Shown here piece after piece: positions 3,879 to 21,585 of a stretch of DNA of 21,977 nucleotides. Source of the stretch: an uncultured euryarchaeote (lineage in GTDB: Archaea > Thermoplasmatota > Poseidoniia > Poseidoniales > Thalassarchaeaceae); assembly GCA_937901365.1 (NCBI GenBank), contig CALCEF010000064.1:1-21977 (forward strand), written 5' to 3'. The position numbers and the translations under genes are program-made. The notes under the pieces are model-generated. The model worked only from the letters and a program-made list of their open reading frames with translations, did not search any database and was not told where the DNA came from. Numbering within the stretch: the first letter of the stretch is position 1; the number at the start of each line of letters is the position of its first letter.

Positions 3879-6800
3879 TCAACTGGTTGTTCGATCGTCG
3901 TATCGAATGGGTGAGCCGCCGTTGCCACGAATGCCATCGACCATGTCATCATCAATCTCAAACCAATCATTCAGCCAATCACCGTCTGTGTCGTAATTGG
4001 TTGGATCGGTTCCGTCGGCGATATTATCGCCATCAATGTCAAGATTCCACCAACCCCAAACATACTCTCCTTGCCCAACATTAGGGAAGCGATCAAACGA
4101 ACCCCACCGTCGTTCCCAATCATCGGTCCAGTCACCTCGACAAATCGTCACATCATCGGTTTCATCGAGAACCATGTAATCAACATCATTGTCGAAAACG
4201 ATGTGAGCATAGAGATCGTCGGTTAAATTGATTCTATACATTCGGAAATAGTTCGCATAGATATCATTCTGTGTCCCTGTTTGGAGTAGATATCCGCGCA
4301 ATTGCCACCACTCTGTTATCTGTTCACCCTCGTAGAGTAATGGTGAACCACGAACCTGAGTTGCACTCGCTAATGTCGTATTACCATAGAATTCTTGGAA
4401 ATTGTTGTATGGCAGATAGATACAAGTTGGACCCGAACAATCCCAGCCACCATCATTGTCAGGATCTTCTGTTGCATCGGATGAATCGCGAGGGTCGAAT
4501 GTGGCCCAAGTCCATTCCATGTTCGGTCGTGCCAGATTCATTCCCGTCACATTCAACGGCTTCTTTGTGGCACCGAAATCTTCCCAGACCACTTTGATGT
4601 GTAGGAAAGAGGACCAATTGTCATTCGATTCGTTCCAACCTTTGTCGTGTTCCCACCAATCTGGAAGCATGTCTCCATCGGTATCTGTATCAATTGGATT
4701 GGTTCCAAATTTGTAGACTTCTTGTCCATCTGAGAGTGCCCATGAATAATCGTATGCAGTGGTGACTCCACCCGAATGCTCCCGGACCTTCTGAACTGCA
4801 TCCCCATCCGTGTCATTGGAAATCGGCAAAGTACCCAAATTCCACTCTTGAATATTGGTGAAAAACAGCGGGCTATTTCCTGGAGAAATTTGCTGACTAG
4901 AATCGTATGGAGTAAAGGTGCGGGAATCCCATGAACCCTGTTGAGCCGGGGTGTCTCCCGATGTTCGATCATACCACCCATCGGCATCTGGATCGTAATT
5001 GACATCCAGTGGATTCACAGGGTTCAAACTCCATCTCCAACTGTTCATCGGCAGAGTTTCAGAATATCGCGAATAGCAGAATTCCCAGCCATCGGGCATC
5101 GTGTCACCATCTGAATCGGGATGGGTTGGATCTGAAATCCCCAATAAGCTCAGGTTCCAGTTGTCTGAATAGGCCTCATTGATTCGAACCATACGTTCGC
5201 TGCTCATGACGTCCTTGGCGACAAACAAGTCGTACAATACACTGCGAGCATCCGATTCGGTCATACCCAATTCTTCTTCGTGTGCAGTCATCGCATCGCG
5301 ACCATAACTCACCAAACCGAATTCAACCGGTATTGTGAATCGTTGATCGAATCGGCCATAAATTCGGGCCTGATATTCAGCCAAATTATCGTAGGATTCA
5401 TTTTCATCAATTTCACCATCCCCATTACAATCCCATGAATCGTTATCAGAATCAAAATCGACATCTGCAGCTGTCAGTGGGTTCATTTCCCATTGATTTC
5501 CATCTAAGTCCCACTCAGTGAACCAATACTCGTATCCATCAATCATCTGATCACTGTCCGTATCGTTGTTTGTTGGATCTGTAATTCCAATAATGGTCGA
5601 AAGAAGTGGAGGTGGTGGAATCGCTGGATTGCTTCGCCAATCTAGATACTGCTGAGAGGCGATCATAGCACGATTGCCCTTCGCAAATAGCATCGAATTG
5701 ATACGTTGCAAAAACGCATTCTCATTCTGAGCAATGGCTTCCTCCCACATGCGTGGAGCATCCGGTGGTGAGAGACCACCATTGATTGGATTCTGTTCGG
5801 TCAGATTGAGTTCTTGCAAATCGGTTAGAGCGTCTTGATCTGCATCATAATGACCATCGCCGGCAACCAGTGGATTGAGGGTCCAAACCAGATCGGTCTG
5901 ATTCCATTGGGTAAACAGAAGTTCAATCCCATCATACATTCCGTCGCCATCGGTGTCCGGATTGTTGGGGTCACATGTCCAACCACTAATTGCAATTTGT
6001 TCGGGTGTGATAAAGGCGCCAAATGATGTCATAGAACCCGCTTCATTCCAAACTTGGATCGCAGCGATATCTCCTACGCCGAAAACGTAGTATTGCGGGC
6101 TAGATTGCTCGGGGTTTGTTTCGGAATAATTCGAATCAATGGAGTTGTATTCTTCCCAATTTGTCATTCCATCACCATCTGGGTCTCCAAGCGAATCTAA
6201 TTCCATGACTGGATTCAGAGTCCAACCGTCATTGTAGACATCCCAGCGTGAAAAGAAAACCTCCCAACCATCGGGCATACCGTCTTGATCAGTGTCCCTG
6301 TCTAGAGGGTCGCTAGTTCCATGGTCCGATTGAGGTGCTAGAGGTTGGTCATCGATGACTTCCTGCGACACGTAGAACCCAAATGGTTCGGTCGCTGAAC
6401 CGTTCCATGAATCATTGAACAATGAGGTTGTGAACGGCAAACTATTGCCATCCTGATCAACATCACCTAGCATGATCATGGATGAAATGTAATACTCCAT
6501 CCAATTGGTGTACATCTCATCAGGCTGCAGGATTCCATCGTGATTGACGTCATATCCGTCGCCATCTGGATTGTTACCGGCATCAGAGCCGTTCAGAGGA
6601 TTCAGACCCTCCTGCGCTGAAGACCACGAACAGGTATAACGCGCCTCCCAACCATCGGGGAGACCATCACCATCAGAATCGATTAGATTCGGGTCTGTAT
6701 CGACCCATGTGGCGGCCCCTTCTGCGGTTTCATTGTGAGTTTCCAAGCCCTGTTCTAGGACGAATAAACGAATTTGTTGCCACTGATATTCACAGAGATT

Positions 6801-9608
6801 GGTCAAACCATCTCCATCGGCATCTTCGTTTGCATCTGTGGGATCAGTAGGGTCGAGTGACCAATCATTCCCGCCGTGGAATGTTTGGCCAATCCAGCGG
6901 CGGTATTGGATTTCCCAGCCATCGGGCATACCATCCTGATCCGTGTCTATATTGGTTGGATCGATGGAGCGGTCTGTTCCACCACCTGCTCCAGAATCTG
7001 ACCATCCTGTAATGTACGTGTTTCGAGCAGATTCACCCGCTGATTCATCACAGACGTAACCACCATTGAGATAGTGGCATGTGAAGTTCGTTCTCTCAAG
7101 GAAAAAGCCCCAATACTCCTCGCCATCGAACAAACCATCACCATCTGTATCGGCCAATTGAGGATTTGTGCTGTTCCATCCTTGCTCAGTGGAGGCGACA
7201 TATCGGAACTCATCTAGATTGGACCAACTTCGGTCAAAGTAATCATCTTCATCAGGATTGAAATTGACACCGTCTGCATCCTGATCTTCATCTCCATCGT
7301 ATGGGTTGGTTGGATCCAATCCGAAAATGAATTCCCAGCCGTCGGGCATGCCATCTGAATCTGAATCATTTGACTGTGGGTCGATGAGTACCATGTTGGC
7401 GTAAGTGCCGGGATCCAATGCTGCGAAAAGCATGGAATCCCCATCAAGGTCCAAGACTGTCATATCGACTACTCGGCCGGGGATATGTGTGTGATCCGGT
7501 TCGACGCCTGAAGAGCGACTGTGGTCAGCATCAAGGGCCCATGAACCCCACTGCGAACCAATGATGACACCGTCTTCCTGAGGTAAAATGGCTAGTACAT
7601 CATTGGCTGTGAGTTCATTCTCGGCATCGCTGTATCTCATTCTTTCATAGGAGAACCCTGCAATTGGATTGGATGGGCCGACAACCAAATCGAACTGATG
7701 GACACCGCCTCGAGTTCCGACCCAAAGTGTCTGAGGGCTGGTGATTTCTCCGTTTGTGTCTCTTGGCCCATCAATGACCAATGCCTGCACACGAGCAGCT
7801 AGTGCAGAGTCGATGGCGTCCGCAGGGTGTACGAAATTCTCAGCATTTGTAGTGTCGAAAATCCAAGTCGAGGAGAAACCGCCGGCGAAATCTGAACTGT
7901 TTGCCATCACCAGGCCTCGGTCAGTGCCAACGAAAAGACGCGGACCTTCACTTGGAAGGACGACATGGACTGCCGTCTCTACCGTTGTATTCTCTTGCTG
8001 TTGAAGGGTATCGGTGAGTTGCAATACAGTGGTTGGAGTGCTGATGAGGCCTTGGGCATCCAACGTGAAGCGCCAAACCTGTTGATCCGCTCCAAAACCG
8101 AGTAAGAGAACTTGGTTACCACTTCCGGTCTGGATTGGAGTCATCAATTCGATTGGGCCGGTTTCAATTTCATCGATTATCGAAGAGAATTTTCCATCTT
8201 CACCCAAAGACAGTGAAATCAGACCTGTTGTTGTAGAGAGTAGCAGAACACCATCTTCACCGCCTTCGGGCCACATATACAAATCGTGCAAGTCAACCCC
8301 AGACGGCAGTTCGTAATGACTGGACGAATTCATCAGTGGCTCAATGATTGTAACTCCGCGCATGGTACCGACGTAAACCAAATCATGCACATCATCTGAG
8401 AAAATGGAGTGGGCATTGTGATGTAACAAACTTGGAGTTGTGCCTTGATCAAAAATTGTGACCGATTGATCGGCAATTCCAACTGGCGCCTGTTTAACAC
8501 CAGCAGTCACCCAATTCCCATCATCAATGTATACGGTGTATTCTTCCAAATTGCTGAACACTTCACCAAGATCGAGGGTTGAACCTGAAGTGTCGGGGGA
8601 AATCGCACCATCTCGATTGAAATCCCAACCGTCCAAATCGCTGTCAATCAAAGCATCGCTGCTGTTGAATGGGTCGAGTTGGAAATAAATCTCCCAACCA
8701 TCAATAATCCCGTCACCCTTCTGTGTTTGATACAAAGCCTGTCCAGGATTTCCGGCCCATCGATAATAGTCTGTATCATTGTCGAGTGGGTCCGTCCCTA
8801 ACCACCCATCATCATTGGTGGGTCGAGTTTCATCAGTCCGACAAGGGTTAACGAGAGAAACTTGGAGAGTGCCCCGTTCGAATGAAATTTCACCAGAACA
8901 GCGCAGACCATCAAACTCCGTCACCCAATTTTCGGGCGCACCGTAGAGATATTCCTCAGCATTCGTGTAGAACTCGTGTGGCTCAACTGTGCCATCTCGA
9001 TCAACATCAAATCCGTCACCACAGCCCAACTGTAGATCGCGACAGCGGTCACTGTCCAGTAGACCATCGCTACTGTTCAAGGGGTCGAAGGCAGGGCAAT
9101 TCCAAACATTTGATTCATTCTTGAATCCGACACTTTGCATACACATGGCAACCTCGTAGCCGTCTGGTAAACCATCGCCATCAGTATCAGCCACCCGCGG
9201 ATCGAGATACCAGCGCACACCGATCTCAGAAATGTCGGCAGACTTACCTGGTAATCCGGTTCGATTATTGGTAAAACAAGAATCCAAATCATACGGCCAA
9301 CAATATTCCATCAAGGCGGTTAAACCGTCGTAATCATGATCACTTTGGTTGTCCGTTCCATTGTCTGCATCCAAACCTGAAATCAATCGTGATCGATCAC
9401 CCATGTCCAAAAATATCGACTCGCTGAAAGCTTCCTCATGGAGATCGGGCATTCCATCCTTATCGCGGTCTGTAATCGGTGGACCCTCGCCGGTCGTATC
9501 ACCAGGGTGAACGGATTGAACCGGGCTACTGGGGCGAATTTGGCTGACAAAAACCATCGAACCGAGAATCAAGAGTGTAATCAGAAGCGCTGTTTGCTTT
9601 CGACGCAT
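3879..9608 (-). CDS. Secreted 1909-aa Asp-rich repeat protein with internal beta-propeller
   Basis: The ATG at 9608 has AGGTGA four bases upstream. The N-terminus (MRRKQTALLITLLILGSMVF) is a typical signal sequence without a lipobox Cys. Residues about 45-345 and 745-1909 carry thrombospondin-type-3-like motifs of the form DxDxDGMPDGWE (for example near residues 145, 753, 893, 981, 1113, 1220, 1353, 1500, 1645, 1873). Many alternate with a second half-unit, W-x-LNP followed by DxDxDGxxNxxEY. These Asp-rich loops are known to bind Ca2+ and stiffen extracellular stalks. Between the blocks, residues about 365-745 have short repeats such as LFVGTDRGLVMAN, LWVGTRGGVHQFD and VIIGSQWGSWALD, like beta-propeller blades of the regulator-propeller type. 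There is no C-terminal transmembrane anchor, so it is either released or held by an uncleaved N-terminus. Function as a surface stalk or ligand-binding protein is inference. The final stop (TGA, 3881-3879) follows a complete repeat, so truncation is not obvious. Confidence 0.92.
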   Translation of the reverse strand: MRRKQTALLITLLILGSMVFVSQIRPSSPVQSVHPGDTTGEGPPITDRDKDGMPDLHEEAFSESIFLDMGDRSRLISGLDADNGTDNQSDHDYDGLTALMEYCWPYDLDSCFTNNRTGLPGKSADISEIGVRWYLDPRVADTDGDGLPDGYEVAMCMQSVGFKNESNVWNCPAFDPLNSSDGLLDSDRCRDLQLGCGDGFDVDRDGTVEPHEFYTNAEEYLYGAPENWVTEFDGLRCSGEISFERGTLQVSLVNPCRTDETRPTNDDGWLGTDPLDNDTDYYRWAGNPGQALYQTQKGDGIIDGWEIYFQLDPFNSSDALIDSDLDGWDFNRDGAISPDTSGSTLDLGEVFSNLEEYTVYIDDGNWVTAGVKQAPVGIADQSVTIFDQGTTPSLLHHNAHSIFSDDVHDLVYVGTMRGVTIIEPLMNSSSHYELPSGVDLHDLYMWPEGGEDGVLLLSTTTGLISLSLGEDGKFSSIIDEIETGPIELMTPIQTGSGNQVLLLGFGADQQVWRFTLDAQGLISTPTTVLQLTDTLQQQENTTVETAVHVVLPSEGPRLFVGTDRGLVMANSSDFAGGFSSTWIFDTTNAENFVHPADAIDSALAARVQALVIDGPRDTNGEITSPQTLWVGTRGGVHQFDLVVGPSNPIAGFSYERMRYSDAENELTANDVLAILPQEDGVIIGSQWGSWALDADHSRSSGVEPDHTHIPGRVVDMTVLDLDGDSMLFAALDPGTYANMVLIDPQSNDSDSDGMPDGWEFIFGLDPTNPYDGDEDQDADGVNFNPDEDDYFDRSWSNLDEFRYVASTEQGWNSTNPQLADTDGDGLFDGEEYWGFFLERTNFTCHYLNGGYVCDESAGESARNTYITGWSDSGAGGGTDRSIDPTNIDTDQDGMPDGWEIQYRRWIGQTFHGGNDWSLDPTDPTDANEDADGDGLTNLCEYQWQQIRLFVLEQGLETHNETAEGAATWVDTDPNLIDSDGDGLPDGWEARYTCSWSSAQEGLNPLNGSDAGNNPDGDGYDVNHDGILQPDEMYTNWMEYYISSMIMLGDVDQDGNSLPFTTSLFNDSWNGSATEPFGFYVSQEVIDDQPLAPQSDHGTSDPLDRDTDQDGMPDGWEVFFSRWDVYNDGWTLNPVMELDSLGDPDGDGMTNWEEYNSIDSNYSETNPEQSSPQYYVFGVGDIAAIQVWNEAGSMTSFGAFITPEQIAISGWTCDPNNPDTDGDGMYDGIELLFTQWNQTDLVWTLNPLVAGDGHYDADQDALTDLQELNLTEQNPINGGLSPPDAPRMWEEAIAQNENAFLQRINSMLFAKGNRAMIASQQYLDWRSNPAIPPPPLLSTIIGITDPTNNDTDSDQMIDGYEYWFTEWDLDGNQWEMNPLTAADVDFDSDNDSWDCNGDGEIDENESYDNLAEYQARIYGRFDQRFTIPVEFGLVSYGRDAMTAHEEELGMTESDARSVLYDLFVAKDVMSSERMVRINEAYSDNWNLSLLGISDPTHPDSDGDTMPDGWEFCYSRYSETLPMNSWRWSLNPVNPLDVNYDPDADGWYDRTSGDTPAQQGSWDSRTFTPYDSSQQISPGNSPLFFTNIQEWNLGTLPISNDTDGDAVQKVREHSGGVTTAYDYSWALSDGQEVYKFGTNPIDTDTDGDMLPDWWEHDKGWNESNDNWSSFLHIKVVWEDFGATKKPLNVTGMNLARPNMEWTWATFDPRDSSDATEDPDNDGGWDCSGPTCIYLPYNNFQEFYGNTTLASATQVRGSPLLYEGEQITEWWQLRGYLLQTGTQNDIYANYFRMYRINLTDDLYAHIVFDNDVDYMVLDETDDVTICRGDWTDDWERRWGSFDRFPNVGQGEYVWGWWNLDIDGDNIADGTDPTNYDTDGDWLNDWFEIDDDMVDGIRGNGGSPIRYDDRTTS
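3960..7370 (-). repeat. C-terminal block of DxDxDG (TSP3-like) protein repeats
   Basis: About eleven copies of a degenerate coding repeat lie here, spaced roughly 200-450 bases apart. The core half-unit is DxDxDGMPDGWE plus an aromatic tail ending in RW or TQW; the partner half-unit is W-x-LNP, a short gap, DxDxDG and an EY end. Codons differ between copies, so selection acts on the protein and there is no recent DNA-level duplication. Clear copies are near 6930 (DTDQDGMPDGWEIQYRRW), 6665, 6270, 5950, 5550 and 5090. Confidence 0.85.
8560..9480 (-). repeat. N-terminal block of DxDxDG protein repeats
   Basis: Three or four copies of the same Asp-rich motif precede the propeller: DKDGMPDLHEEA near 9455, DTDGDGLPDGYEVAM near 9175, and DGIIDGWEIYFQLDPFNSSD near 8710 followed by DSDLDGWDFNRDGAISPD. 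They are more divergent than the C-terminal block, and several lack the W-x-LNP partner. Confidence 0.75.
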
Positions 9609-9765: not shown

Positions 9766-9847
9766 GCGATTTCCAAAGGGTCCGAAAAAGGACTTCCAAT
9801 CGGTGGGTGAAGCGCTTCATTCAAGGGGTGTAAGGTCGGCCGCCGAT

Positions 9848-9851
9848 AAGG
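9848..9851 (+). promoter_or_regulatory. Shine-Dalgarno site that decides the hydrolase start
   Basis: AAGG followed by TCCGA and then ATG at 9857 gives a five-base spacing. It favours this start over the upstream in-frame GTG at 9803, which has only a more distant AAGGA near 9788. Confidence 0.6.
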
Positions 9852-9856
9852 TCCGA

Positions 9857-10657
9857 ATGACGCTTGAGATTACGCACCTTGGTTCGGGCAGCCGCGGCAA
9901 CGCGACGCTGCTCCAAACAGAGGAGTCGAAAGTGCTCATTGATTGTGGATTTAGTGGCCGGCAAATGGAGCGCCGTCTGGGGCGAATTGGAGTCGCCCCG
10001 GATGCGATTGATGCCATCTTACTAAGTCACCATCACACAGATCACGTTCAGGGTGCAGATGTCTTCAGTAGGAGACATGGAGCCCAATTGTACGCCAATT
10101 TCACGACATGTGCGAACCTGGGCTTTGACCCGGTCAACCGATGTCGGATCTTTGAGGCACTTGAACGGGTTCAGGTCACGGCCGATTTATCCGTCCTCCC
10201 AATACCTGTACCACATGATGGAGCAGAAAATGTCGGATTCATTGTGCATTCAGGTTCAAGTGAACGGGCTGCTGTAGTCACAGATCTCGGTGAACCGACC
10301 GATGAATTGATTCGTCATCTGAAGGGATGTGCACACATTTCAATCGAGGCGAATTATGATGCGAAACGGTTGGCTCTTGGACCCTATCCTCCTCGACTGA
10401 AAGCTCGGATTTCAGGCAGGGGTGGCCACTTGTCAAACCAACAAACTGCGGAGTTGTTGGCGGAAATCTTAGGCCCTCAAACCAAGAGTGTTGTTCTTTG
10501 CCACCTCTCGCAGAAAAACAATGCACCCCATCTAGCGGAAAGCGAGGCGTTATTCAGGATTGAAAATTGGTCTGGTGATCTCCGAGTTTCAACTCAAGAA
10601 GGTCCTGAATTCAGTCACTGGTTGGGCCAGTCTCAAGCAGAGATATTGACACGGTGA
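9857..10657 (+). CDS. yycJ: YycJ/WalJ-type metallo-beta-lactamase-fold hydrolase
   Basis: A cytoplasmic metal-dependent hydrolase of 266 residues, the usual size for the YycJ/WalJ group, whose members are predicted phosphodiesterases or nucleases; WalJ of Firmicutes is linked to DNA handling and cell-wall control. The N-terminus ITHLGSGSRGNATLL matches the family opening, and VLIDCGFSGRQMERRL follows. The metal-binding motif HHHTDH is at residues 58-63. Later conserved pieces are PVPHDGAENVGF, VVTDLGEP with the bridging Asp near residue 142, SIEANYD, GRGGHLSNQQTAELL and the C-terminal His in VLCHLSQKNN near 215. I chose the ATG at 9857 because AAGG lies five bases upstream (9848-9851) and family homology begins there; a GTG at 9803 would add 18 unsupported residues. 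It has its own promoter and a hairpin after its stop, so it is probably monocistronic. The family assignment is firm; the substrate in archaea is unknown. Confidence 0.92.
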   Translation: MTLEITHLGSGSRGNATLLQTEESKVLIDCGFSGRQMERRLGRIGVAPDAIDAILLSHHHTDHVQGADVFSRRHGAQLYANFTTCANLGFDPVNRCRIFEALERVQVTADLSVLPIPVPHDGAENVGFIVHSGSSERAAVVTDLGEPTDELIRHLKGCAHISIEANYDAKRLALGPYPPRLKARISGRGGHLSNQQTAELLAEILGPQTKSVVLCHLSQKNNAPHLAESEALFRIENWSGDLRVSTQEGPEFSHWLGQSQAEILTR

Positions 10658-10662
10658 AAAAC

Positions 10663-10683
10663 TTCACCTCAGTATGAGGTGAA
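10663..10683 (+). terminator. Perfect 9-bp hairpin after the hydrolase gene
   Basis: TTCACCTCA, loop GTA, TGAGGTGAA: a perfect 9-bp stem starting 6 bases after the hydrolase stop and ending 38 bases before the first pilin-like gene. No long T-run follows, so it may be a transcript-end stabiliser or a leader element of the pilin-like operon instead of a terminator. It is also a near-palindromic possible operator. Confidence 0.5.
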
Positions 10684-10721
10684 ATGAGAATGGCTAAGAA
10701 CATACGGCGGCATGTCGACCC

Positions 10722-11756
10722 ATGCGCCCATCCGACGCCGCCCGGCAATCGGCCGACGAGCGGGCCGTTTCAGAAATCATGGGCGTCACGATGCTATTGG
10801 CCATGGTCATCTCTACAATGGCTGGAGTTGTAATCGTCATGCAACCCTTCATGCAGGACTTGACCGACAACCGAGATTGGGCTGCTGGAAGTGTGGCTGC
10901 AACCCAATTCAATGACCGATTGATGGTTGTCGCCGAATCACCTGCCGGGACTGGAGTTGTGGTGACTAGTCAGCATGTGAAGGACACGATTACGCCCCTC
11001 CGAATTGCTGAAATCTGGCAAATCAGTGCAGATCTTGCTGGTCACGACCGTGTCACAATCTCGATGGATAATGGAATTATTTCTGTTTCCTCGCTCAACA
11101 GCACTGCTTTTTCAATTGTAATCCAAACAAGCACGGATTCAGAACAATGGAATTTGACGGATGGACAAGGTGAAATTACGACTGGTATGAGTTTGCAAGA
11201 GTGGGTTCAGATCGATGTTATCGATGAAAATCAGGAAGTGATTCATCGTTGGATTCAGGCCCCACTTGATGGAATACAAATTCGCACACCTCTAACATCT
11301 GGCTCATTTCAGGTTAATCTGGTAAATGGTGCCAGAATTGAGCAACTTCCGAACCAACCAATCGATGTTAGAAGTTATCCGCGCCTCCACCATGACACTG
11401 CTCTTGATGGTGGGTTGCGTGTTAGTTTCGTTCTTCTGGATGTGGATGTTGAAGGGCTGGAGAGAAATACAGATGTGTCACTTGATATCGAGAGTAGAGG
11501 GGCGATTACATTCTTTGATCACGAAGCTCGAAACTTGCGCTTGATGGCAGAATTTACTGGTGTAGACAATCCAGAATCTCGATACCTCCGACACTGGACG
11601 GATGCATATGATCTGCACCGTTCAACAGGTGATTCAAGCGAATATGTTGGATTTGGTCCAAATGGTCGACTGTCTGGGGCTGAAGGGATGACCATTCATC
11701 CCGCATCCAATAATTTCCATCTCGATGTAATTCTGCAGCAGGTTGTGGTCCAATGA
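10722..11756 (+). CDS. Type IV pilin-like protein, first gene of three (344 aa)
   Basis: The N-terminus has a short charged leader (RPSDAARQSADER) and then AVSEIMGVTMLLAMVISTMA, which is the archaeal type IV pilin (class III signal) pattern: a cut near the ER-A junction by a prepilin peptidase, a Glu early in the mature part, then about 25 hydrophobic residues that pack into a filament core. Residues about 45-344 are beta-rich with Ser/Thr/Asp-rich strands and no Cys, as expected for a surface-exposed head. At 344 residues it is larger than simple archaeal pilins (commonly about 120-200). The ATG at 10722 is the first in-frame start after a stop at 10695-10697, and it has no clear Shine-Dalgarno, so the transcript could be leaderless or nearly so. 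Its stop overlaps the next start (ATGA), implying coupled translation. It may be a pilin, archaellin-like or secretion pseudopilin subunit. Confidence 0.88.
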   Translation: MRPSDAARQSADERAVSEIMGVTMLLAMVISTMAGVVIVMQPFMQDLTDNRDWAAGSVAATQFNDRLMVVAESPAGTGVVVTSQHVKDTITPLRIAEIWQISADLAGHDRVTISMDNGIISVSSLNSTAFSIVIQTSTDSEQWNLTDGQGEITTGMSLQEWVQIDVIDENQEVIHRWIQAPLDGIQIRTPLTSGSFQVNLVNGARIEQLPNQPIDVRSYPRLHHDTALDGGLRVSFVLLDVDVEGLERNTDVSLDIESRGAITFFDHEARNLRLMAEFTGVDNPESRYLRHWTDAYDLHRSTGDSSEYVGFGPNGRLSGAEGMTIHPASNNFHLDVILQQVVVQ

Positions 11757-14059
11757 TTCGCAGAGAGCGCGATGAAGAAGCCGTTTCAGCCGCTATTGCG
11801 ACTGTGTTGCTATTTGCTGGCGTGATTTCAATCATCTCCGGGATGATGGTGACGGTTATTCCAGTCATAGACGAATTGCATGGAGCTGTAGAGCGAGAGA
11901 ACATGGTCGGCCAAATGGAAGACCTAGCATCAGAAACTGAACGGTTGAGTGAATCAGGAACTCCAGGCGATACCGCACAATTGACAATTCGACCCCATAC
12001 AGGTAATCTGGCGTGGGAACTTCTGGAGGGAGGGACATGGTATACCGCTACGCACCAACCGGACAGTACATTCCGACTGGAAGGAGTTCTGGATCTTGAT
12101 GATTCAATGCGCTTCCGTCATGCAGAACACCATGTGGAGAGTCTCTGTGCCACGAATCTGCACGCGTCCGCTGAATCATTGAATCACTATCGTCTACCAT
12201 TGTTGGACGGGGATGTGTCAGCGACACCCCTCAATGCATTGACGTCATTATTGGGTTCAAATGAAATATCCTTTGAACAGGATGGATTAACTGAAAATCA
12301 TGTGATTCCCACGGATGCTGTTTGGTTCATGTCTGGATTAAATGCTGCTGATGGTGAAGCATGGATTCACAGTGAAATGCCCTTACGCGTAATCATGTGG
12401 AAAGGAAATGGTGGTGCATTACTCGCAACACCCGACCAACCTATTCCCGGTTCAGATGAAGGGCGAAGTTGGACTATACCGCTGATTCCAAACTCTCATT
12501 CAATACACCTCGAATCTGATTCACCTTTCACATTGGAATGGGAAACAACAAGTGCAAGCGGAAGCGGAAGTTCGTCATCTCTGTCAGTGGCCCAAGCACC
12601 TCTTGGCGAAACTGACACGATTCACTCATGGCAAGGAGAGATTACCACATCACAATCTGAACAACTTGTGCTACGAACTTCTGCACCGGCAAGGATGGTA
12701 CTACATTGGGGGGATGCGGCCGAACTTGATGGAGAGGGACCAGGTGCAGTGCCTTGGCTTGATCGAAGCGGTTCATCGACAGGGGTACACTTCAGACCCC
12801 CTGCAATGGATGGTTCGTTACTCATACACAACCCAAATAGTGCACCTACGACTGCCAAAATAGGCAACCTCTACCATGCAATCAGCGGCTACTCCAGTAT
12901 TCGAATCCCATGGGATTCAAGTCAATTGTCATGGATTGAGGGTGGCGACCCAATTCAAGTTGAATGGATTCTAGATGCGCAAACAGTTGGCGATACAGCA
13001 ACCCATGCTACTGGATGGAGACCAGGGAGTTTGTCGATTACCCCGGCCGCCGATACTGGTCGAATCTCAGGAGAAAATTGGAAATTTGAGCCCCCTAAGA
13101 GTGGTGGAGATTCAGAATCTCCAGCTGTCGGTTCAACCTCTTTCGTCCTCCAAACCGCTGGTACTTCCGCTTCTTGGTCAACCAACACCAATCAGGCAGG
13201 AAATAGCAATCACAGTACAACTTCAGGCACCTTCACATTGGAAGAAGACCACATTGGGTTCCTTTCGGTTGAATCTTCGGACGGGGCCATGAGAATCTAT
13301 ACATCCACAGGGGAAGATGGTAGCGCTGAAATTCCAGAGGATGGTGCAGAGCGATGTGTTATTGTCGACCTGAGGGCATCGGGTTGGATTGAGGTCAATT
13401 TACCATGGGCTACTGTTGACCATTGGAAAACCAGTGACATCAGAAACGCATGGAAAGACGGGACTCATTTCTTCGGATTGCAACTATCAATTCGAGGTGC
13501 GGTCGGAGATGATCCACACGCAACCCTCGGTTCAGCATGGGCACTTCATCTCCCAAGGTTCACATACACGTTTGATTCCAGTGTCACTGATTTAGAAATC
13601 CTCACACATGGTGGATTTGTGGGCACAAACCATCCCGAATATCAGGCAGACGTTCTGATTCCCCCACCTTCGCGTGAGGGACCTGGCCCAAGATTGGCTG
13701 CTACGGTTCCAATCGCCATGCCAACCATGGACTCTGCTGGTGGTTCGGCCCAACTTGAACTGACGTTGACACTGGATGTCAGAGAGCAGGTAGCCACCAT
13801 CGATGCACATCAGGTCCGCCGAGGTTGGGATGGACCATATGCAGTTGCGATTGCAGCGGAAAGCTCTGTAAATCTGGAGTTTTCTTCCGATTGGCTCGCT
13901 TTCCCTGGTCAGTTGGAAATGTTGGATGATTATGTTGGGTGGGTGCAAACATCACCAACGATGCCTGAAGTTGTCTATCATGCGGGTGGAGAATCCGTTC
14001 TGTTCAATCTTCAAGTTGCTAGCCTGACTAGTCAAACCAGCATCGGAGGTGTTGCTTGA
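11753..14059 (+). CDS. Large pilin-like protein with 700-residue ectodomain, second gene of three
   Basis: The N-terminus MIRRERDEEAVSAAIATVLL continues into a hydrophobic segment to about residue 40, the same class III signal layout as the neighbours, but Ala replaces the early Glu seen in the first and third genes. After a Glu-rich coiled stretch (residues about 45-68) comes an ectodomain of about 700 residues that is beta-rich. It has a Ser/Gly linker (SASGSGSSSSLSV, near residue 270) and two isolated Cys near residues 132 and 535. The exterior part has no family I can name. Archaeal pilins are usually under 200 residues, so this is exceptionally large. Overlapping starts and stops (ATGA before, TGATG after) put it in the middle of a coupled operon. 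By analogy with GspK of type II secretion, a large pseudopilin lacking Glu5, it may sit at a filament tip; that role is inference. Confidence 0.87.
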   Translation: MIRRERDEEAVSAAIATVLLFAGVISIISGMMVTVIPVIDELHGAVERENMVGQMEDLASETERLSESGTPGDTAQLTIRPHTGNLAWELLEGGTWYTATHQPDSTFRLEGVLDLDDSMRFRHAEHHVESLCATNLHASAESLNHYRLPLLDGDVSATPLNALTSLLGSNEISFEQDGLTENHVIPTDAVWFMSGLNAADGEAWIHSEMPLRVIMWKGNGGALLATPDQPIPGSDEGRSWTIPLIPNSHSIHLESDSPFTLEWETTSASGSGSSSSLSVAQAPLGETDTIHSWQGEITTSQSEQLVLRTSAPARMVLHWGDAAELDGEGPGAVPWLDRSGSSTGVHFRPPAMDGSLLIHNPNSAPTTAKIGNLYHAISGYSSIRIPWDSSQLSWIEGGDPIQVEWILDAQTVGDTATHATGWRPGSLSITPAADTGRISGENWKFEPPKSGGDSESPAVGSTSFVLQTAGTSASWSTNTNQAGNSNHSTTSGTFTLEEDHIGFLSVESSDGAMRIYTSTGEDGSAEIPEDGAERCVIVDLRASGWIEVNLPWATVDHWKTSDIRNAWKDGTHFFGLQLSIRGAVGDDPHATLGSAWALHLPRFTYTFDSSVTDLEILTHGGFVGTNHPEYQADVLIPPPSREGPGPRLAATVPIAMPTMDSAGGSAQLELTLTLDVREQVATIDAHQVRRGWDGPYAVAIAAESSVNLEFSSDWLAFPGQLEMLDDYVGWVQTSPTMPEVVYHAGGESVLFNLQVASLTSQTSIGGVA

Positions 14060-14529
14060 TGTCACGGAAATTGAGGGAGGATGAGTCGGCAGCAGCGACT
14101 GAAATTGGTTACGTGTTCACCTTTTTACTCGGACTCATGTTCCTTTCGTCGTTTTCCATTTGGGTTTGGGGTCTGGAAGTTTCAACTCAGGATCGTTGGA
14201 CTGAAGAGGCGTTGGAAGAAAATCTACTCGCGGTCGGCGCGGCTGTTGAAAGGGCGGACGAAGCCGCGAGATTAGATGTAGATGCAAGATATGCTGAACC
14301 TGTCGACCTATACCTTTCATCGGCAGCCGGATTAAATCTTGAAATGTGGTTGACTGATGACTCCCTACACCTCTCAGATGGTAAGGAAATGTACCGTACA
14401 AGTCAGCCGATTTCTGGAGCAGCAGCAACTACACATTCAGGAACGATCAAACTTTCAGGAATCGACACCATTTGGGTTGTGCTGGATGCTGGACAGGTCA
14501 CCATTCAAGTTGAACAACCCGGGTTTTAA
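14059..14529 (+). CDS. Small pilin-like protein, third gene of three (156 aa)
   Basis: The leader MSRKLREDESA is followed by AATEIGYVFTFLLGLMFLSS and FSIWVWG, again a charged leader, an early Glu and a hydrophobic helix. Then comes a Glu-rich helical part (residues about 40-70) and a compact beta-rich head of about 85 residues ending in VTIQVEQPGF. Its size is that of an ordinary archaeal pilin or pseudopilin. I chose ATG at 14059, one base overlapping the previous stop (TGATG); a TTG at 14056 is possible but less likely. Its stop TAA (14527-14529) overlaps the stop of the convergent ATPase gene. It is a probable core subunit paired with the first gene; no assembly ATPase or TadC/ArlJ-like platform gene is nearby. 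Confidence 0.87.
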   Translation: MSRKLREDESAAATEIGYVFTFLLGLMFLSSFSIWVWGLEVSTQDRWTEEALEENLLAVGAAVERADEAARLDVDARYAEPVDLYLSSAAGLNLEMWLTDDSLHLSDGKEMYRTSQPISGAAATTHSGTIKLSGIDTIWVVLDAGQVTIQVEQPGF

Positions 14530-17051
14530 TGACCCATGATGGCGCGATGCATCTGCCCCTGAACCTCTCGCATACGGGCACCTGCACCCAATTCACGGAA
14601 AACAGTGAGTGCTCTCTGCAAGTAATTCATGCGCTCGGATTTCTCCGGTGCTGCTTCGCCTAATCGAGCCAATAATTCTCCAATCAACGGACGGAAATCG
14701 TTGGCTTCCGCCATGGCCAATCCATCGAGATAATGCTCGACTGCTTCATCGGATCGTCCCGCGTCTGAAAGCGCTTCTCCAAGAAGAATGGTGATTTCGA
14801 CTGCGCTCCGTTGATCGGTTTCCTCTGCCATCTGCTCAAGAGCCTCTGAATAATGGTGAAGTGCAAGATCAGCGTCACCAGTTCGAGCATAAAAACGTCC
14901 AAGAACGGCTCGAGAACGGGCGTGAAGTCCAACGTGTTCTGACCCTTCAGTCTCTTCGTAGGATGTCAATGCATGCTCACGTGCGCGATCAATTTCACCC
15001 ATCTCAAGTAATGCCGATGCCAACTTAATGCGGACCTCTACCAATTCGGGATCATCTTCTGCTTCGAGTAAATCCTCAACGTTTCCGTAGACCTCTAATG
15101 CTCGTTTTGTATCCTTCCTATGACGGAAAATATAGCCCATGTTGGCATAGGTTCGAGCCGCCCCTTTGGCATCGCTTGTATCGATAAACAATTGCAGGGC
15201 CTTTCGATGCAACTCAAGACCAGAATCTGTTTCTCCTCGTTGAATTGCCAAATCCGCCTTACTCGACAAGATTCTGCCTTGCATCTCTAGAGAAACATGC
15301 GGCGGTTCCAAAATCAATGGTAGAGCCGATTCGTATTCCGATTCTGCATCGGCCCAGCGACCTTGTAATGACAGAATATCTCCACGCATCTCCAGAATCA
15401 TTGCCCATGTAGGCGTTTCAAAGTGTGAGGCGTCGAGTTCTGCAAGAAGTGGAAGTAGTTCCATGTGTCCACTTCGAATTAACGAACGGCCATGCTTTTG
15501 CAGAACATCTCCCAAAGTGTCGGTGTCTGATGAATTCACAAGATGGTAGATGTATTCCAACTGCTGTTCGGGCGCATCTAGGCGCTTGCGGTACCAAGCG
15601 CATGCTGCTGTGTGTAGAGTTGTTGCTGTTTCAACATCGAATGTTCGTAGTAAAAATTCCCTAACCAAATCGTGTACGTCGTAATTTTCACTGTCGACTT
15701 GTCTCGCCAAACCCTTTTCGACTAAATCATCGAGTAGGTCTGTCTCGATTTCATGGTTCGAAAGTGCATCTAGAGGCATGGGTTCGCGATAGATTGCGAT
15801 TGCGCCAAGCACTCTCTTTTCAGAACCAGAAAGTCGGCTGAAAATCTCCTCCTCAACGAAGGTTTCCAGCGTATCGTGGAACGTTGAACCGACAGAACCA
15901 CGATTGATTAGTTGGAGAATCAAAGGGTGTCCTCTAGAAAGTGTGTAGATGTGCAAGAAGGTGGACATATCCATGTCTGGCATCGTCGTCAAGAGATTTC
16001 GGCTCGCCGATTGATCCAAGCCTTCCAAAGGCAGTACGAGGGCGGAAATATTACCCTCTGCATCCTTCAAAGGGACGACTGCACGGAAAGAGCGACTAAA
16101 CATCACCAGGCCACATTCTTGAACGTCCTCCATTCGCTGTGATAGCCCGCGAATGATTGCAAAGAGGGCGTCGTCGTTGACTTTGTGCAAGTCATCGATT
16201 ACAATCAGAGAAGGAATCTCTTCAAGCGCGCCTACAATCAAGTTCACAGCGACAGAGGATTGTGGGACTGCAGTGGCTTGGATATAATCTGACAAATCAT
16301 CATCTCCGATGGTAGACAACCATTCGGCACACGCCTCAAGGAATGCGCGACTACCCTCCCAATCTTGGCAACGGTGATAGAGCAGATTTCTGCGATGTGT
16401 GTATTGTTCAATGACTTTCCCCGCGAGTGCGGTTTTCCCAATTCCTGCAATTCCTGGAACTAGAAGGCAAGATGATCGTGCATCCAGTAATGCGCAGATA
16501 TTCTCAAGCTCGGTTTCACGACCGAAGAACGCCCTAGTGCGCGGTAGATCTCCCAACGATGTGACGAGTTGTTTTTCCACATGTTTATCCAAATCTCGCT
16601 GAATCAATTCCTCATTGAGAGTCCGCAAATCTAGCATTCCGTTGTCATCCATATAGCGGAGAACATCAACTGCTCGAAGTGGGAACGTTGCAATTTCAAT
16701 CGAACCCGCCAAGGTTGTCGTATGCGTTGCACCCTCCTTATCGACGAGGCGAACAGGGTGTTCTGAAAGGCGCTTCCAAGTTTCTTCGGCTTGAACCATA
16801 CCAGAATCTGTCAAGAAATACGCCTTTCGCTTTCGACTAACTCCTGCGACGTGTGCTTGGCGTTCAATCAGATGATTGGCGTCCTTCAATCCAGCAATAG
16901 CGCGAGGTACATTGCTTCGAGCAATGGCGACTGCATTGGCAATCCCCATCTGCGAAAGAGCGAAGGGGACTTCGACCGAATCGGTGTAATCTGCATAATC
17001 ACGCAAATGGAGCATGATTCGCTCCTGAACACCGGGCCGAGGATGACTCAT
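14526..17051 (-). CDS. Winged-helix / STAND ATPase / TPR regulator-like protein
   Basis: This 841-residue cytoplasmic protein has the layout of MalT/AfsR-like STAND proteins. Residues about 1-100 form a winged-helix-like DNA-binding region ending in SRKRKAYFLTDSGMVQAEE. Residues about 185-430 are an NTPase with FFGRETELENI, a Walker A motif GIAGIGKTAL near residue 205, a Walker B motif LIVIDDLHK near 284 and a sensor-like LVMFSRSF near 318. Then comes a winged-helix-like region (LSGSEKRVLGAIAIYREPMP). Residues about 480-835 are TPR helices with repeated A-x-x-x-Y/H-x-x-A-L cores such as ALHHYSEALEQMAEE. STAND proteins are signal-dependent ATP switches that often control transcription; the ligand here is unknown. 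I chose ATG at 17051 over the one at 17108 because the extra 19 residues are not family-like. It is convergent with the pilin-like operon and shares the TTAA at their ends. It may regulate surface genes, but that is only positional. Confidence 0.85.
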   Translation of the reverse strand: MSHPRPGVQERIMLHLRDYADYTDSVEVPFALSQMGIANAVAIARSNVPRAIAGLKDANHLIERQAHVAGVSRKRKAYFLTDSGMVQAEETWKRLSEHPVRLVDKEGATHTTTLAGSIEIATFPLRAVDVLRYMDDNGMLDLRTLNEELIQRDLDKHVEKQLVTSLGDLPRTRAFFGRETELENICALLDARSSCLLVPGIAGIGKTALAGKVIEQYTHRRNLLYHRCQDWEGSRAFLEACAEWLSTIGDDDLSDYIQATAVPQSSVAVNLIVGALEEIPSLIVIDDLHKVNDDALFAIIRGLSQRMEDVQECGLVMFSRSFRAVVPLKDAEGNISALVLPLEGLDQSASRNLLTTMPDMDMSTFLHIYTLSRGHPLILQLINRGSVGSTFHDTLETFVEEEIFSRLSGSEKRVLGAIAIYREPMPLDALSNHEIETDLLDDLVEKGLARQVDSENYDVHDLVREFLLRTFDVETATTLHTAACAWYRKRLDAPEQQLEYIYHLVNSSDTDTLGDVLQKHGRSLIRSGHMELLPLLAELDASHFETPTWAMILEMRGDILSLQGRWADAESEYESALPLILEPPHVSLEMQGRILSSKADLAIQRGETDSGLELHRKALQLFIDTSDAKGAARTYANMGYIFRHRKDTKRALEVYGNVEDLLEAEDDPELVEVRIKLASALLEMGEIDRAREHALTSYEETEGSEHVGLHARSRAVLGRFYARTGDADLALHHYSEALEQMAEETDQRSAVEITILLGEALSDAGRSDEAVEHYLDGLAMAEANDFRPLIGELLARLGEAAPEKSERMNYLQRALTVFRELGAGARMREVQGQMHRAIMGH

Positions 17052-17110
17052 AATGTCCACTTCACCCCAATTTTGCCTTGTCCCCTTTTGATAGTGACGT
17101 GAGCACACCC

Positions 17111-17147: not shown

Positions 17148-20100
17148 TCACTGGTTGTCCGGGACCCACTTGTTTTGCTCCGCGTCCCACTTCCAACCAG
17201 GGTAACCTGATACTGCTGCTGGCGCGGCTGCTGCTACCGGTTCGGTGGCTTCCACAGGAGCTGCTGCTACTTGCTGCTGTTGTGCCTGCTTAGCCCAAGC
17301 ATAGGGGTCTACCTCTTCTGCTGGCTGTTCAAGATCGTCTTCATATTCCTCTTCAAATTCTACGAAGAAGAAGACGAATACAGCGCCCAAAACGGCGAGA
17401 ACAATCAGAGCGCCAACGACCATCAAAATCCACATGAAGACGCTGGTGCCATCATCAGCCGCACCTTCGACATTAATCTGTGAATCAGAATTGAGTGGTT
17501 GCTGGACGTTGCCATATTCAAAGACAATTGTATTGTCACCCTTTTCAAGGCGGTTTGCACCGATTTCCATCATCCATTTTCCATCTTCTCCAACAGCTGT
17601 GCTCCCAAGTCGCAACCCTGCTGATGTTTCTCCAATGACGTTGACCGAAGGTCGACCATTGCCACTGTAGACAATGATGTCGTCTTTGCTAACCTCTGCA
17701 GGACAACCTGCAACGAAGGTACCATCGACCATGAGCCCGGCACATTCCGAGGTGAATGAAACACCAACAACATCGAAGTCAATCGGATCCGATGAAATGG
17801 TACTTCCTGCGCTATCTATGACTTCAAAGATGACATCATCTAGAGACCAGTCTTCCATGTCTGGGAAGTAAAATGACATCGACAAAGGATTGTAATTGGC
17901 AATCCCTGAACTGCCGATGGTGATTACCTCAGCATGATAGTCATCCTCAAACTTGTCCTGTTGATCAAGAACGTAGTATGACAAACTGTCACCCGGATCT
18001 ACATCCGAGAAATATTGCGTGAGATCTAGCGAATATCCTGAACCGCAACGGTTCTGAGATGCGCCGGTCTCTTCACAGAAAATTGTTACAGAATCGGGCC
18101 ACGCAGTCGAATTGAATGCTGGCCGAGTATTGTCTTGGTTTGGAGGGTTGTCGATTACGATTTCAATCGATGCGGCCTCACTGTATTGGAACCCATCAAA
18201 GGAACGTGCTTCAATGATGTAGTGATAATTGTGCACCAAATTGGTGGTATCCCATGTTGTTGCCCAACCACCATTTGCCATGATGTCTGTAACCAACGAG
18301 TGTTCACCTTCTGGCATTTCAAGGAAACCCGCTTGTGGATCTTTGATGACAATCTCTACCTTTGTCACAGTTCCATCATTGTCACGCGCAACACCACTCA
18401 GAAGTGTGTCTTCACTGGCGGTGATAACCTGCAAATCGTAAGGTGTGAGCAGTTGAATAAACGGTAATGCATTGTCGTTGTCAATTTCCAGAACCAATTC
18501 AACCGGTGAGCACTCATCTGGAGAGTTCGTGCAGAATGCGGAATCGCTGGCCCACACCTTCACCGTGTATGTACCCGAAGGCAAGTGGCCAACTGTCCAA
18601 TCGGCAGACCATGCTGTTCCACCGGGTTTGTCGAACAAATTGTAGTAGTTATTTGGTCCATCTACCTCAAACCAAATTCGCTGAATATCGCTACCGAAAA
18701 TACCACTGTAAGCATCTGATGCACGACCTGTGAAGTGGACGATGCCATCATCGATATTCGTCCCCGATGCAGGTCCATCGACCCAAACGGTTGGCGGTTC
18801 GGTGTTGAGTTTGATTGTTCTCGTAACAATTTGAGATTCGGTAACACCGTCAAAAGCCCGGAATTCGAACGTGTAATCGCCCTCGGGTTGGTCACTCATG
18901 TCGAATTCAAAGTACCAGTGGCTGAACGGGTGGTTGTTGTAAGTGACTTCTCCGTCAGAATTGCTGTCATCAACAGCCAAACGCATGTCAATCCAATCGC
19001 TGGTGAATGGATCTTTGACCTGGACCTGCTCGACTGCACCTTGTTGGTCCCATCTAGCCAAGTCGTCAGATGCGTAAATGCCCGCCCATTGTCCATCGTG
19101 TGCCGTACCGGTGAAGTTAACTGAGCGCTTGAATGAATGACCATCGTTCTGACTAACCGTTAGACTTGGTGCAAGGTTCTCCAGAGTGACAATTTCAGTC
19201 AAAACGCCGGTTTGACTGGTCATCGTGAGACTGTATTTCTTGTAGCCCTTGCCGAACTTGTATGCGGATACGTAGTATAGTGACAATTCGCGGCTGTTGG
19301 GACCTGCTTGACAATCCGGATCATCTGAATCATAAATCAAATCTCCATCATTGTCCATGCCGTCGCTACAGGAATTTTCACCTTCATCGTCAGCATAACG
19401 ATCAGGGTTGATTCCGCCGGGACCGCCGCCTGTCATATCAAGATGGAAATCACTTGCCAATGATACCTCAGGAGTCCAACCTTGGCTGTCTGTAGTCAAG
19501 CTGTACAAATCTTCACCGTGACTATCTTCGATCAATACGGTTGCACCGCCGACACGTACACCTTCTACAATGGTGCGGAACTTGACAATCTCAGCCTTTC
19601 TGATTTGGACTGCCCACTTGATTGGAGATGTGTCAATGTAGATGTTCGACGTATCCAATCCTGTCAAATTCGAATATGTGAATACTGTTGAATTATTGGT
19701 CATTTCAAGCGCCAATGGGAAATTTTGTGGCGGCCAAACACTGCATGTTGGAACCAAAACTTGTGTTTCCCAATTTGTCCAAGATGCGGCTTCAACATCT
19801 GGCCATGCGAGTGTGACCGGGTCGGTTGTATTCGATGCTTGACTGGGAATCGGGATGTTCTCTGATTGTACGGTAACACTGCTCTTTGAGATATTGTATG
19901 TCTGGCCGACACCAGTCCACGTGTTTCCTGAGAAGAATGCGAGCGAACCATACTGTGGGTCACCGGCATAACCGGTGTTGTGGTGCTTGATATTGGCTCC
20001 AGTTCCTGTAGAGTTAATCACATTGTTTCGAACGTCGAGAATCGCCCCGACTGAACGGATTCCATCTCCACCTCCTCCAATGCTGATATCATTGTTCAAC

Positions 20101-21512
20101 AAAGTCACTGATGCCCGGAATGCATGGACTGCAGGGCAAGGGAAATCGCCACCCCACGCTTTCTGACCTGTGCATTCGCCACCGCTGCTGTCGATGATTG
20201 AATTGGCAACATACATTCGGTTCTCGGAGGGTCCTGGTACAGACCAGCCACTATCGCCGAAGTGATATTCACCGGCGATAAGAGGCTCTTTGGCCGTATC
20301 TTGAATCGTGACATTCTCAACTCTAACATCACTTTCTCCAATAGACCAGATTCCGTTCCATCCGCCGATGGGTCCTATGGAGCCACCGCTGACGGTAACT
20401 TGGCTCTTGGAAATTTGAATCCCAGATCCGTCTGAAGCTCCATCGATGACATTGTTGTTGAAATCGACCCAAGCCAAGTTGAAGGCGGTCAAGGGACTTC
20501 TTTCATCGGTTGTAATCTTGTTATTGGCAACAGTCAATTTGTAAGCAACATTGTTTCCGGCAGTCTTCTTGTTATTGACGTCGATTCCATTGCAGGTTGT
20601 GTCGATCGTAGAAGAGGTTACAGAACCCGCAGAATCATCGAGACGAATTCCATAATCACCACTAGCAATCACAGCATTTTGGATATCAACGTAGGATTCT
20701 TCCACCCAGAGAACGTGGCGGCCATCGTCATTTTGACCACAGCCGTTGTCTGTGCCAGTGAACACAGGAGCAATGATCGAAAGGGGTTGAACCGTACTTC
20801 CTGCTCCATAGGCTTGAATGGCTGAACCTATCAGTGAAGTAGCATCATCGCCAACAGTAAATTCCCCACCCACAATATCTGGACGAGCAAGGTCAAGAAT
20901 CAGCAAACTCGTTGTATTGATTCCAGTGAATTTCAAACCGGTCATGGTTGGGCTTGATCCCTCAGCGACAAGTGCACCATATCGAACTTCAGAAATCTCC
21001 GACACCCAACGCGGCATACCATAGGCGTTGGTAATCGACACGTGGTTCAATTTGGTCGCACCAATGTCAACGGTGCTTCGTAGTAGAATTCCTTCGTTGC
21101 AGGAAGGATCACGATTGTAGTGGTTGCCACTGAAAATCCCATAGCAGCTACCGATTGCAGATGCATTGGTAGGTTCCTGCCAATTGAATGTGATTCGCGA
21201 ACTATTGCTCGCCATTCCATTGGCGCCACAGGCGACGTCACCTGCACACAATCCACCGCGGACATCAATGATGGTGCCATTGGGAATTGTGACAGTGGTT
21301 CCTGGCTGTACAATCAGATTCGCACCGGTCGCAACAATGACATCTCCAGTCAATGTATGCGATCCTGACCAAACTTCAGTTCCAGTAATCGTGCCGTTCG
21401 ATGTTTCATTTGCTGCCAAAGCCGTAGGCATCAGGCCGACAAGGCCAATCATGACGCTTGAGAGCATCAAGAACGACAATAGCAGGCTTTTGTTTCGATT
21501 GGTTTCTTCCAT
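17148..21512 (-). CDS. Membrane-anchored beta-helix / Ig-like surface protein (1454 aa)
   Basis: The ATG at 21512 has GGAGTGA five bases upstream, and the N-terminus (METTN-like start, then KSLLLSFLMLSSVMIGLVGL, ending TALAA) is a clean signal peptide. Residues about 55-530 are a right-handed parallel beta-helix: many short repeats such as DYGIRLDDSAGSV, GNNVAYKLTVANNKI and VRVENVTIQDT, with Asn ladders. A Ca-binding-type loop, CSDGMDNDGDLIYDSDDPDC, is near 712-736. Residues about 775-1130 contain three Ig-like modules with the pattern VxFxGxAxD then YxIxVxAxD, followed by a cadherin-like YFSDVDPGDSLSYYV. A transmembrane helix lies at about 1357-1382. The tail is acidic, then Gln/Ala-rich, and ends in GWKWDAEQNKWVPDNQ. 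Beta-helix domains often bind or cut polysaccharides, so a glycan-binding or adhesive role is plausible but inferred. It has its own AT-rich upstream region. Confidence 0.92.
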   Translation of the reverse strand: MEETNRNKSLLLSFLMLSSVMIGLVGLMPTALAANETSNGTITGTEVWSGSHTLTGDVIVATGANLIVQPGTTVTIPNGTIIDVRGGLCAGDVACGANGMASNSSRITFNWQEPTNASAIGSCYGIFSGNHYNRDPSCNEGILLRSTVDIGATKLNHVSITNAYGMPRWVSEISEVRYGALVAEGSSPTMTGLKFTGINTTSLLILDLARPDIVGGEFTVGDDATSLIGSAIQAYGAGSTVQPLSIIAPVFTGTDNGCGQNDDGRHVLWVEESYVDIQNAVIASGDYGIRLDDSAGSVTSSTIDTTCNGIDVNNKKTAGNNVAYKLTVANNKITTDERSPLTAFNLAWVDFNNNVIDGASDGSGIQISKSQVTVSGGSIGPIGGWNGIWSIGESDVRVENVTIQDTAKEPLIAGEYHFGDSGWSVPGPSENRMYVANSIIDSSGGECTGQKAWGGDFPCPAVHAFRASVTLLNNDISIGGGGDGIRSVGAILDVRNNVINSTGTGANIKHHNTGYAGDPQYGSLAFFSGNTWTGVGQTYNISKSSVTVQSENIPIPSQASNTTDPVTLAWPDVEAASWTNWETQVLVPTCSVWPPQNFPLALEMTNNSTVFTYSNLTGLDTSNIYIDTSPIKWAVQIRKAEIVKFRTIVEGVRVGGATVLIEDSHGEDLYSLTTDSQGWTPEVSLASDFHLDMTGGGPGGINPDRYADDEGENSCSDGMDNDGDLIYDSDDPDCQAGPNSRELSLYYVSAYKFGKGYKKYSLTMTSQTGVLTEIVTLENLAPSLTVSQNDGHSFKRSVNFTGTAHDGQWAGIYASDDLARWDQQGAVEQVQVKDPFTSDWIDMRLAVDDSNSDGEVTYNNHPFSHWYFEFDMSDQPEGDYTFEFRAFDGVTESQIVTRTIKLNTEPPTVWVDGPASGTNIDDGIVHFTGRASDAYSGIFGSDIQRIWFEVDGPNNYYNLFDKPGGTAWSADWTVGHLPSGTYTVKVWASDSAFCTNSPDECSPVELVLEIDNDNALPFIQLLTPYDLQVITASEDTLLSGVARDNDGTVTKVEIVIKDPQAGFLEMPEGEHSLVTDIMANGGWATTWDTTNLVHNYHYIIEARSFDGFQYSEAASIEIVIDNPPNQDNTRPAFNSTAWPDSVTIFCEETGASQNRCGSGYSLDLTQYFSDVDPGDSLSYYVLDQQDKFEDDYHAEVITIGSSGIANYNPLSMSFYFPDMEDWSLDDVIFEVIDSAGSTISSDPIDFDVVGVSFTSECAGLMVDGTFVAGCPAEVSKDDIIVYSGNGRPSVNVIGETSAGLRLGSTAVGEDGKWMMEIGANRLEKGDNTIVFEYGNVQQPLNSDSQINVEGAADDGTSVFMWILMVVGALIVLAVLGAVFVFFFVEFEEEYEDDLEQPAEEVDPYAWAKQAQQQQVAAAPVEATEPVAAAAPAAVSGYPGWKWDAEQNKWVPDNQ

Positions 21513-21517
21513 GGGTC

Positions 21518-21524
21518 TCACTCC
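21518..21524 (-). promoter_or_regulatory. Shine-Dalgarno site of the beta-helix protein gene
   Basis: On the minus strand GGAGTGA is followed by GACCC and ATG. It supports the start at 21512 and rejects the upstream ATG at 21566, which would place 18 residues ahead of the signal peptide. Confidence 0.65.
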
Positions 21525-21585
21525 AAGTTGCAGGTGTGCGAGAGTTGCAGAGGCTATAACAATCACGTTGTCGCGGCAGTCCGTT

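Follow-up and report, generated by a model that had tools for sequence, protein, structure and literature searches.

Three coupled prepilin-like genes of unequal size form a conserved cassette in Candidatus Poseidoniales and probably serve a type IV pilus whose machinery is encoded elsewhere

Poseidoniales (Marine Group II) are uncultured archaea that are abundant in ocean surface waters. Here we report on three consecutive genes, A, B and C, on contig CALCEF010000064.1 of a Thalassarchaeaceae assembly (GCA_937901365.1). The window analyzed is this whole contig (C64), 21,977 bases long, and the assembly (G000) comprises 1.76 Mb in 376 contigs and is 81% complete. A first-pass annotation of the window had pointed out that each gene begins with a charged leader and a pilin-type hydrophobic segment, features that are present and strongly conserved in the A, B and C families. 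It also described overlaps of 4 bases and 1 base, which we confirm: the stop of A and the start of B share the sequence ATGA, and the stop TGA of B (14057-14059) shares its last base with the ATG start of C at 14059. The open reading frame (ORF) lister placed the start of C at a TTG one codon earlier (14056), giving 157 rather than 156 residues. The exposed parts, put by that annotation at about 300, 700 and 115 residues, measure about 305, 730 and 118. As had been claimed, the window showed no assembly ATPase, platform protein or peptidase in a Pfam scan of seven proteins and the translation alone of an eighth (2-3787).

Judged from sequence, the prepilin-like character of A, B and C is more than chance. 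A charged leader followed by a hydrophobic N-terminal segment of about 20 residues, the arrangement of a class III signal, is found in the aligned members of all three families (20 for A, 21 for B and 20 for C; the alignments omit the contig-cut A of L114 and L118, the B of L109, which has a broken ORF, and the short C ORFs of L115 and L123). In the window the segments read AVSEIMGVTMLLAMV in A, AVSAAIATVLLFAGV in B and AAATEIGYVFTFLLG in C. A glutamate occupies the same place in the segment of every A and every C member (20/20 each) and of no B member (0/21).

The earlier view that the exposed domains match no named family now stands only in part. A and B can be tied weakly to DUF7289 (PF23960) and C to DUF7266 (PF23928), and the large head of B remains uncovered. 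Window A matches DUF7289 at E 1.4e-4 (22 bits, against a curated cut-off of 27), window B at E 3.4e-3 (17.4 bits, same cut-off) over its N-terminal part only, and window C matches DUF7266 at E 7.3e-3 (16.5 bits, cut-off 27.6) in a nearly full-length alignment. At E <= 0.1, DUF7289 is matched by 19/20 A members (best 1.6e-6) and 18/21 B members (best 4.5e-7), and Pilin_N by 12/20 A members. Across the families these matches to DUF7289 and DUF7266 lie mostly below the curated cut-offs. We class A and B as DUF7289-like and not as members of DUF7289. Precomputed PF23960 annotations occur on many A relatives among the 120 listed of 234 found, and an NCBIfam scan named none of the three proteins credibly as a pilin.

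The head of B, about 730 residues, carries two cysteines, Cys132 and Cys535, in all 21 aligned members, 17 of which have no other cysteine. It was not found outside the order: the B profile retrieved 61 proteins among 8000 candidates scored, and the named ones belong to Marine Group II-type archaea. A tip or adhesin role for B may be considered. In two relatives a stop divides a gene into two separate matches, B in G009:C7 and A in G013:C4, through assembly error or decay.

Conservation of the trio in related genomes had been set beforehand as a test, and the unit was found to be kept, with its order unbroken in 80 public loci. These are the best 80 of at least 120 confirmed stretches from named genomes, whose titles nearly all point to Marine Group II-type archaea, and a gene was counted as present even when cut by a contig end. 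The complete order, from a TSP3-repeat protein through a metallo-beta-lactamase-fold (MBL) protein, A, B, C and a TPR regulator to a Big_7 protein (Table 1), occurs in 56 loci and is never violated in the other 24, where the missing genes fall at contig ends. The exception is L182, which has no MBL match despite about 800 bases 5' of its A. Where A is missing (11 loci), no more than 2,145 bases are available upstream of C. The 4-base overlap of A and B is retained in 66 of the 69 public loci that yielded the whole trio. One of the 80 loci, L212, which holds C, carries the title of a Rhodobiaceae bacterium bin and is probably a misbinned archaeal contig.

Table 1. Features of the cassette and its surroundings (window coordinates; match counts are from 59 relatives)
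Feature	Position	Strand	Description	Details and basis
Gene A	10722..11756	+	predicted DUF7289-like prepilin, 344 aa	hydrophobic segment about 10764-10841; match in 43/59
Gene B	11753..14059	+	predicted large prepilin, 768 aa, DUF7289-like N-terminus	hydrophobic segment about 11780-11857; invariant Cys132, Cys535; match in 44/59
Gene C	14059..14529	+	predicted DUF7266-like prepilin, 156 aa (157 from TTG at 14056)	hydrophobic segment about 14089-14169; match in 44/59
ATGA	11753..11756	+	A stop / B start	4-base overlap in 66/69 loci
TGATG	14057..14061	+	B stop / C start, one common base	sequence reading
MBL-fold protein	9803..10657	+	284 aa, conserved, 5' of A	Pfam, locus comparison
AAA/TPR protein	14526..17108	-	860 aa, MalT-like matches, conserved, convergent to C; possible regulator	domain scans, locus comparison
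Big_7-domain protein	17148..21566	-	1472 aa, conserved neighbour	Pfam, locus comparison
TSP3-repeat protein	3879..9608	-	1909 aa, N-terminal hydrophobic segment, conserved neighbour	Pfam, locus comparison
Large ORF	2-3787	-	open at left window edge, N-terminus resembling signal peptide	translation only

We searched 59 relatives, the window's own genome included. Non-archaellum GspE-type ATPases with platform proteins are present in the same genomes as the trio, at other loci, and in the Poseidoniales loci read the trio never shares a locus with an ATPase. Two modules can be distinguished. Module X consists of a gene of about 120 aa, two T2SSF platform genes and a CpaF/GspE-like ATPase gene, without pilin genes (L093, L095, L099, L101), and module Z of a GspE-type ATPase, two T2SSF platform proteins and two small pilin-like proteins. 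X is present in 46/59 genomes and Z is matched in 44; these counts are a reading by ORF length and profile span among the matches listed, to which G020 and G030 each add one further match. The trio co-occurs with X and Z, and the 13 trio-less genomes also have neither module.

This pattern is not shared with the archaellum, and membership of the trio in it was rejected on presence across the relatives. Archaellin-family matches do occur in many of the genomes with the trio, as would be expected of accessory archaellum subunits; however, four genomes with archaellin matches lack the trio, seven trio-bearing genomes lack archaellin matches (four of these seven also lack a listed ArlI-type ATPase), and the trio and archaellum loci are separate. 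None of the listed archaellin (PF01917) matches falls on a trio locus, and genera g2 and g4 have no archaellin matches. An archaellar role for the trio is thus very improbable.

A prepilin peptidase was also found. The Pfam family PF01478 proved nearly blind here as a probe, giving two matches in the 59 genomes, both weak, and was dropped. One of these matches led to a 326-aa protein (L174:1465-2442) with D..ERRVPN and GGAD motifs and sub-threshold A24 matches (28.1 bits against a Pfam cut-off of 29.9, and 24.5 against 26.5), which was used as the query instead. This divergent A24-type prepilin peptidase occurs in 42/59 genomes, the window's own among them: 39 of the 46 X-bearing genomes and three trio-less, archaellin-bearing ones (G020, G021, G030). 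The query found no match in the other 10 trio-less genomes, one of which (G031) has an archaellin-family match. Both components that had been proposed as a check, a co-occurring ATPase and a prepilin peptidase, are found in trio-bearing genomes, as the X and Z ATPases and, in most of these genomes, the A24-type enzyme.

The strongest link of the trio to Z is a bridging locus in another Thermoplasmatota family (f20). There, A-like and C-like pilin genes lie just 5' of genes for a Z-type ATPase, the two platform proteins of Z and a small pilin of Z type; the ATPase is 60% identical to that of Z and 32% to that of X. The DUF7289-type pilins of the f20 genomes are accompanied by ATPase, platforms and peptidase. 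Because this locus joins A-like and C-like genes to a Z-type module, the cassette most likely provides the pilins for the Z machinery, from which it is now encoded separately.

We suggest, with fair confidence, that A, B and C are prepilins of a Z-machinery type IV pilus in Candidatus Poseidoniales. They would be prepilins, most likely minor, tip or priming ones, of a euryarchaeal-type type IV pilus. The A24-type peptidase would trim their charged leaders and the module-Z motor, to judge from the bridging locus, would extract them from the membrane and add them to a filament or to its tip. In an ancestor, pilin genes may have stood beside the Z machinery and later been separated in Poseidoniales, as the arrangement in one other family would imply; the reverse order is conceivable. 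Within such a structure B might be the outermost, surface-contacting subunit, with A and C connecting it, a tentative layout to which we give slightly less than even weight and which we base on size, on the missing glutamate in B and on analogy with bacterial minor pseudopilins.

The idea of a stand-alone cassette using machinery encoded elsewhere, put forward in the first-pass annotation, is supported by the conserved trio, the separate ATPase and platform loci, the peptidase and the f20 locus. Its wording of filament or secretion subunits holds on the filament side; an unspecified secretion role now looks less likely than a type IV pilus.

The trio might instead work with module X and its PilA-type pilin, or be common to X and Z. 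X has the same presence pattern as the trio, and in 21 of the 23 genomes of f2 (probably another Marine Group II family, beside the window's f1) the PilA-type (PF07790) match nearest X shares its contig, at a distance of 1-7 kb. Moreover, the available text of one survey describes the arCOG02911 minor pilin as common to both euryarchaeal pilus types, with machineries thought able to share pilins (PMC4858521). The genes that adjoin the A-like and C-like pilins at the bridging locus are nevertheless of Z type, in ATPase, platforms and small pilin alike, and we regard a partnership with X as unlikely, if well worth keeping in mind.

Our three subunits of very unequal size resemble the minor pseudopilins of bacterial secretion systems. 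After processing by the peptidase, the proteins could make up a pseudopilin piston bound to the membrane, or a complex at the surface, for secretion or substrate binding, with no extended pilus; neither a secreted substrate nor a fibre is known here. Class III signals also occur on non-pilus proteins such as substrate-binding proteins, as the same survey notes in the part available (PMC4858521). Against such a piston or complex stand the DUF7289-type pilins that occur in the bridging genomes alongside ATPase, platforms and peptidase, and the PilA-type pilins present in the same genomes as the trio; we consider it rather improbable.

Several observations weigh against a Z-driven pilus built with the trio. 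Window A, B and C all score under the curated DUF7289 or DUF7266 cut-offs, DUF7266 matches only 6/20 C members at E <= 0.1 (best 2e-6), and profile searches of the PDB gave no convincing match to the heads (best E 0.074 for A, 0.022 for C and 0.99 for B). C is matched in 87 of 389 Thermoplasmatota genomes, 83 of them in Poseidoniales and four, all with weak matches (1.5e-5 to 7.5e-4), in three other families. A single loss may account for the 13 trio-less genomes. Within Poseidoniales, X and Z co-occur too tightly to be separated by presence pattern, and three of the 44 Z matches are pieces (G001, G004, G012). Among X-bearing genomes, G005 and G008 lack the trio and G006 and G011 lack Z, all four being 71-81% complete. 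The family f20 is represented here by two genomes only, in which no B homologue was seen, and the A copy beside its ATPase is truncated by the contig start. The pilin pair of G075 has no obvious machinery within the 11 kb read.

The same genomes encode a second kind of prepilin-bearing protein. On contig C300 (354-14096; L138, L133) the window's own genome encodes a giant of 4,581 residues, which runs from a signal-peptide-like N-terminal hydrophobic segment through about 4,350 residues to a transmembrane segment, an acidic linker, a complete prepilin segment (AVSPVIATILLVAITVVLSGVIYVWAQ; Pilin_N 7.9e-10) and a head of its own. The Pilin_N match lies near the C-terminus, which rules out an N-terminal pilin. 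Further loci of this kind are L134, L135, L140, L141, L143-L156 and L158-L172. The tail layout recurs in 29/30 loci, and a Pilin_N match lies inside an open frame of 4,513-5,478 aa in 20 genomes. Giant-tail matches, PilA-type proteins included, occur in none of the 13 trio-less genomes. The exported part, searched as three pieces, matches no Pfam family at E <= 0.01, and an open-access literature search on the subject listed no paper. The topology would place the prepilin site on the cytosolic side, where the peptidase is thought to cut, and the protein is possibly a pilin-releasing polyprotein or a pilus-mounted giant. A wider scheme would be an undescribed Poseidoniales pilus with an A-B-C tip and the head of B as adhesin, whose peptidase and motors also handle the giant, either mounted on the pilus or cut to free its pilin, together making up an attachment apparatus distributed among at least five loci; we hold this to be improbable and offer it as speculation.

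The pilin genes themselves are flanked by three very large proteins (2-3787, 3879-9608 and 17148-21566) that show Ig-like domains or signal-like N-termini. Directly 3' of the MBL stop lies a perfect 9-base inverted repeat, TTCACCTCA-GTA-TGAGGTGAA (10663-10683), of which 8-9 bases are preserved in 6/6 same-genus loci examined, the window counted. The repeat is absent from the other 14 loci examined, two of which have a different C-rich repeat. Within 10658-10721, a GGTGAA..GGCTAA(GAAC)-like string appears, by eye, to recur 5' of A at several of the loci in each of the two families, and is possibly regulatory.

Pilins encoded apart from their machinery are of a known kind; the variant seen here is a conserved cassette of three pilins, one with an oversized head, that lies away from its motor. 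Euryarchaeal type IV pili have, in the available description, a signature minor pilin, arCOG02911, of about 250-550 aa that is prone to duplication, and machinery using pilins in trans (PMC4858521). A and B share with it the pilin-type N-terminus, the link to GspE/TadC modules, duplication (here as two adjoining DUF7289-like genes), variable length and pilins possibly supplied in trans; unlike those pilins, B has 768 aa and the cassette lies apart from the motor. arCOG02911 and DUF7289 may be the same family.

Compared by description, as far as the accessible text allows, the CdiP pilus of Cuniculiplasma divulgatum (Thermoplasmatales), from the same phylum, also has pilin genes remote from the machinery operon, by about 500 kb, together with two ATPases and a split platform (PMC12448462). 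In CdiP both ATPases belong to one operon and two pilins are known, whereas in Poseidoniales X and Z are separate loci and the three coupled pilins are of unequal size.

In the open-access literature, as far as the texts were accessible, we found no paper describing the trio or its machinery. The sole hint is a Red Sea transcript-start study (PMC5069720, in part), in which a Marine Group II pilin gene with a PilA-adhesion-pilin N-terminus had the seventh most abundant start among Euryarchaeota genes. It comes from the same kind of organism but is PilA/COG3430-type and lies outside the trio; its abundance suggests that such pilins are expressed. Particle attachment in Marine Group II has been ascribed to an archaeal flagella operon in the portions available of two reports (PMC6461757, PMC8821943), and the word "pilus" is absent from the accessible text of the first. 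If our interpretation is true, an archaellum-independent, conserved pilus with a large-headed subunit would be a second attachment system in these archaea, one that extends to genera such as g2 and g4 in which archaellin matches are lacking.

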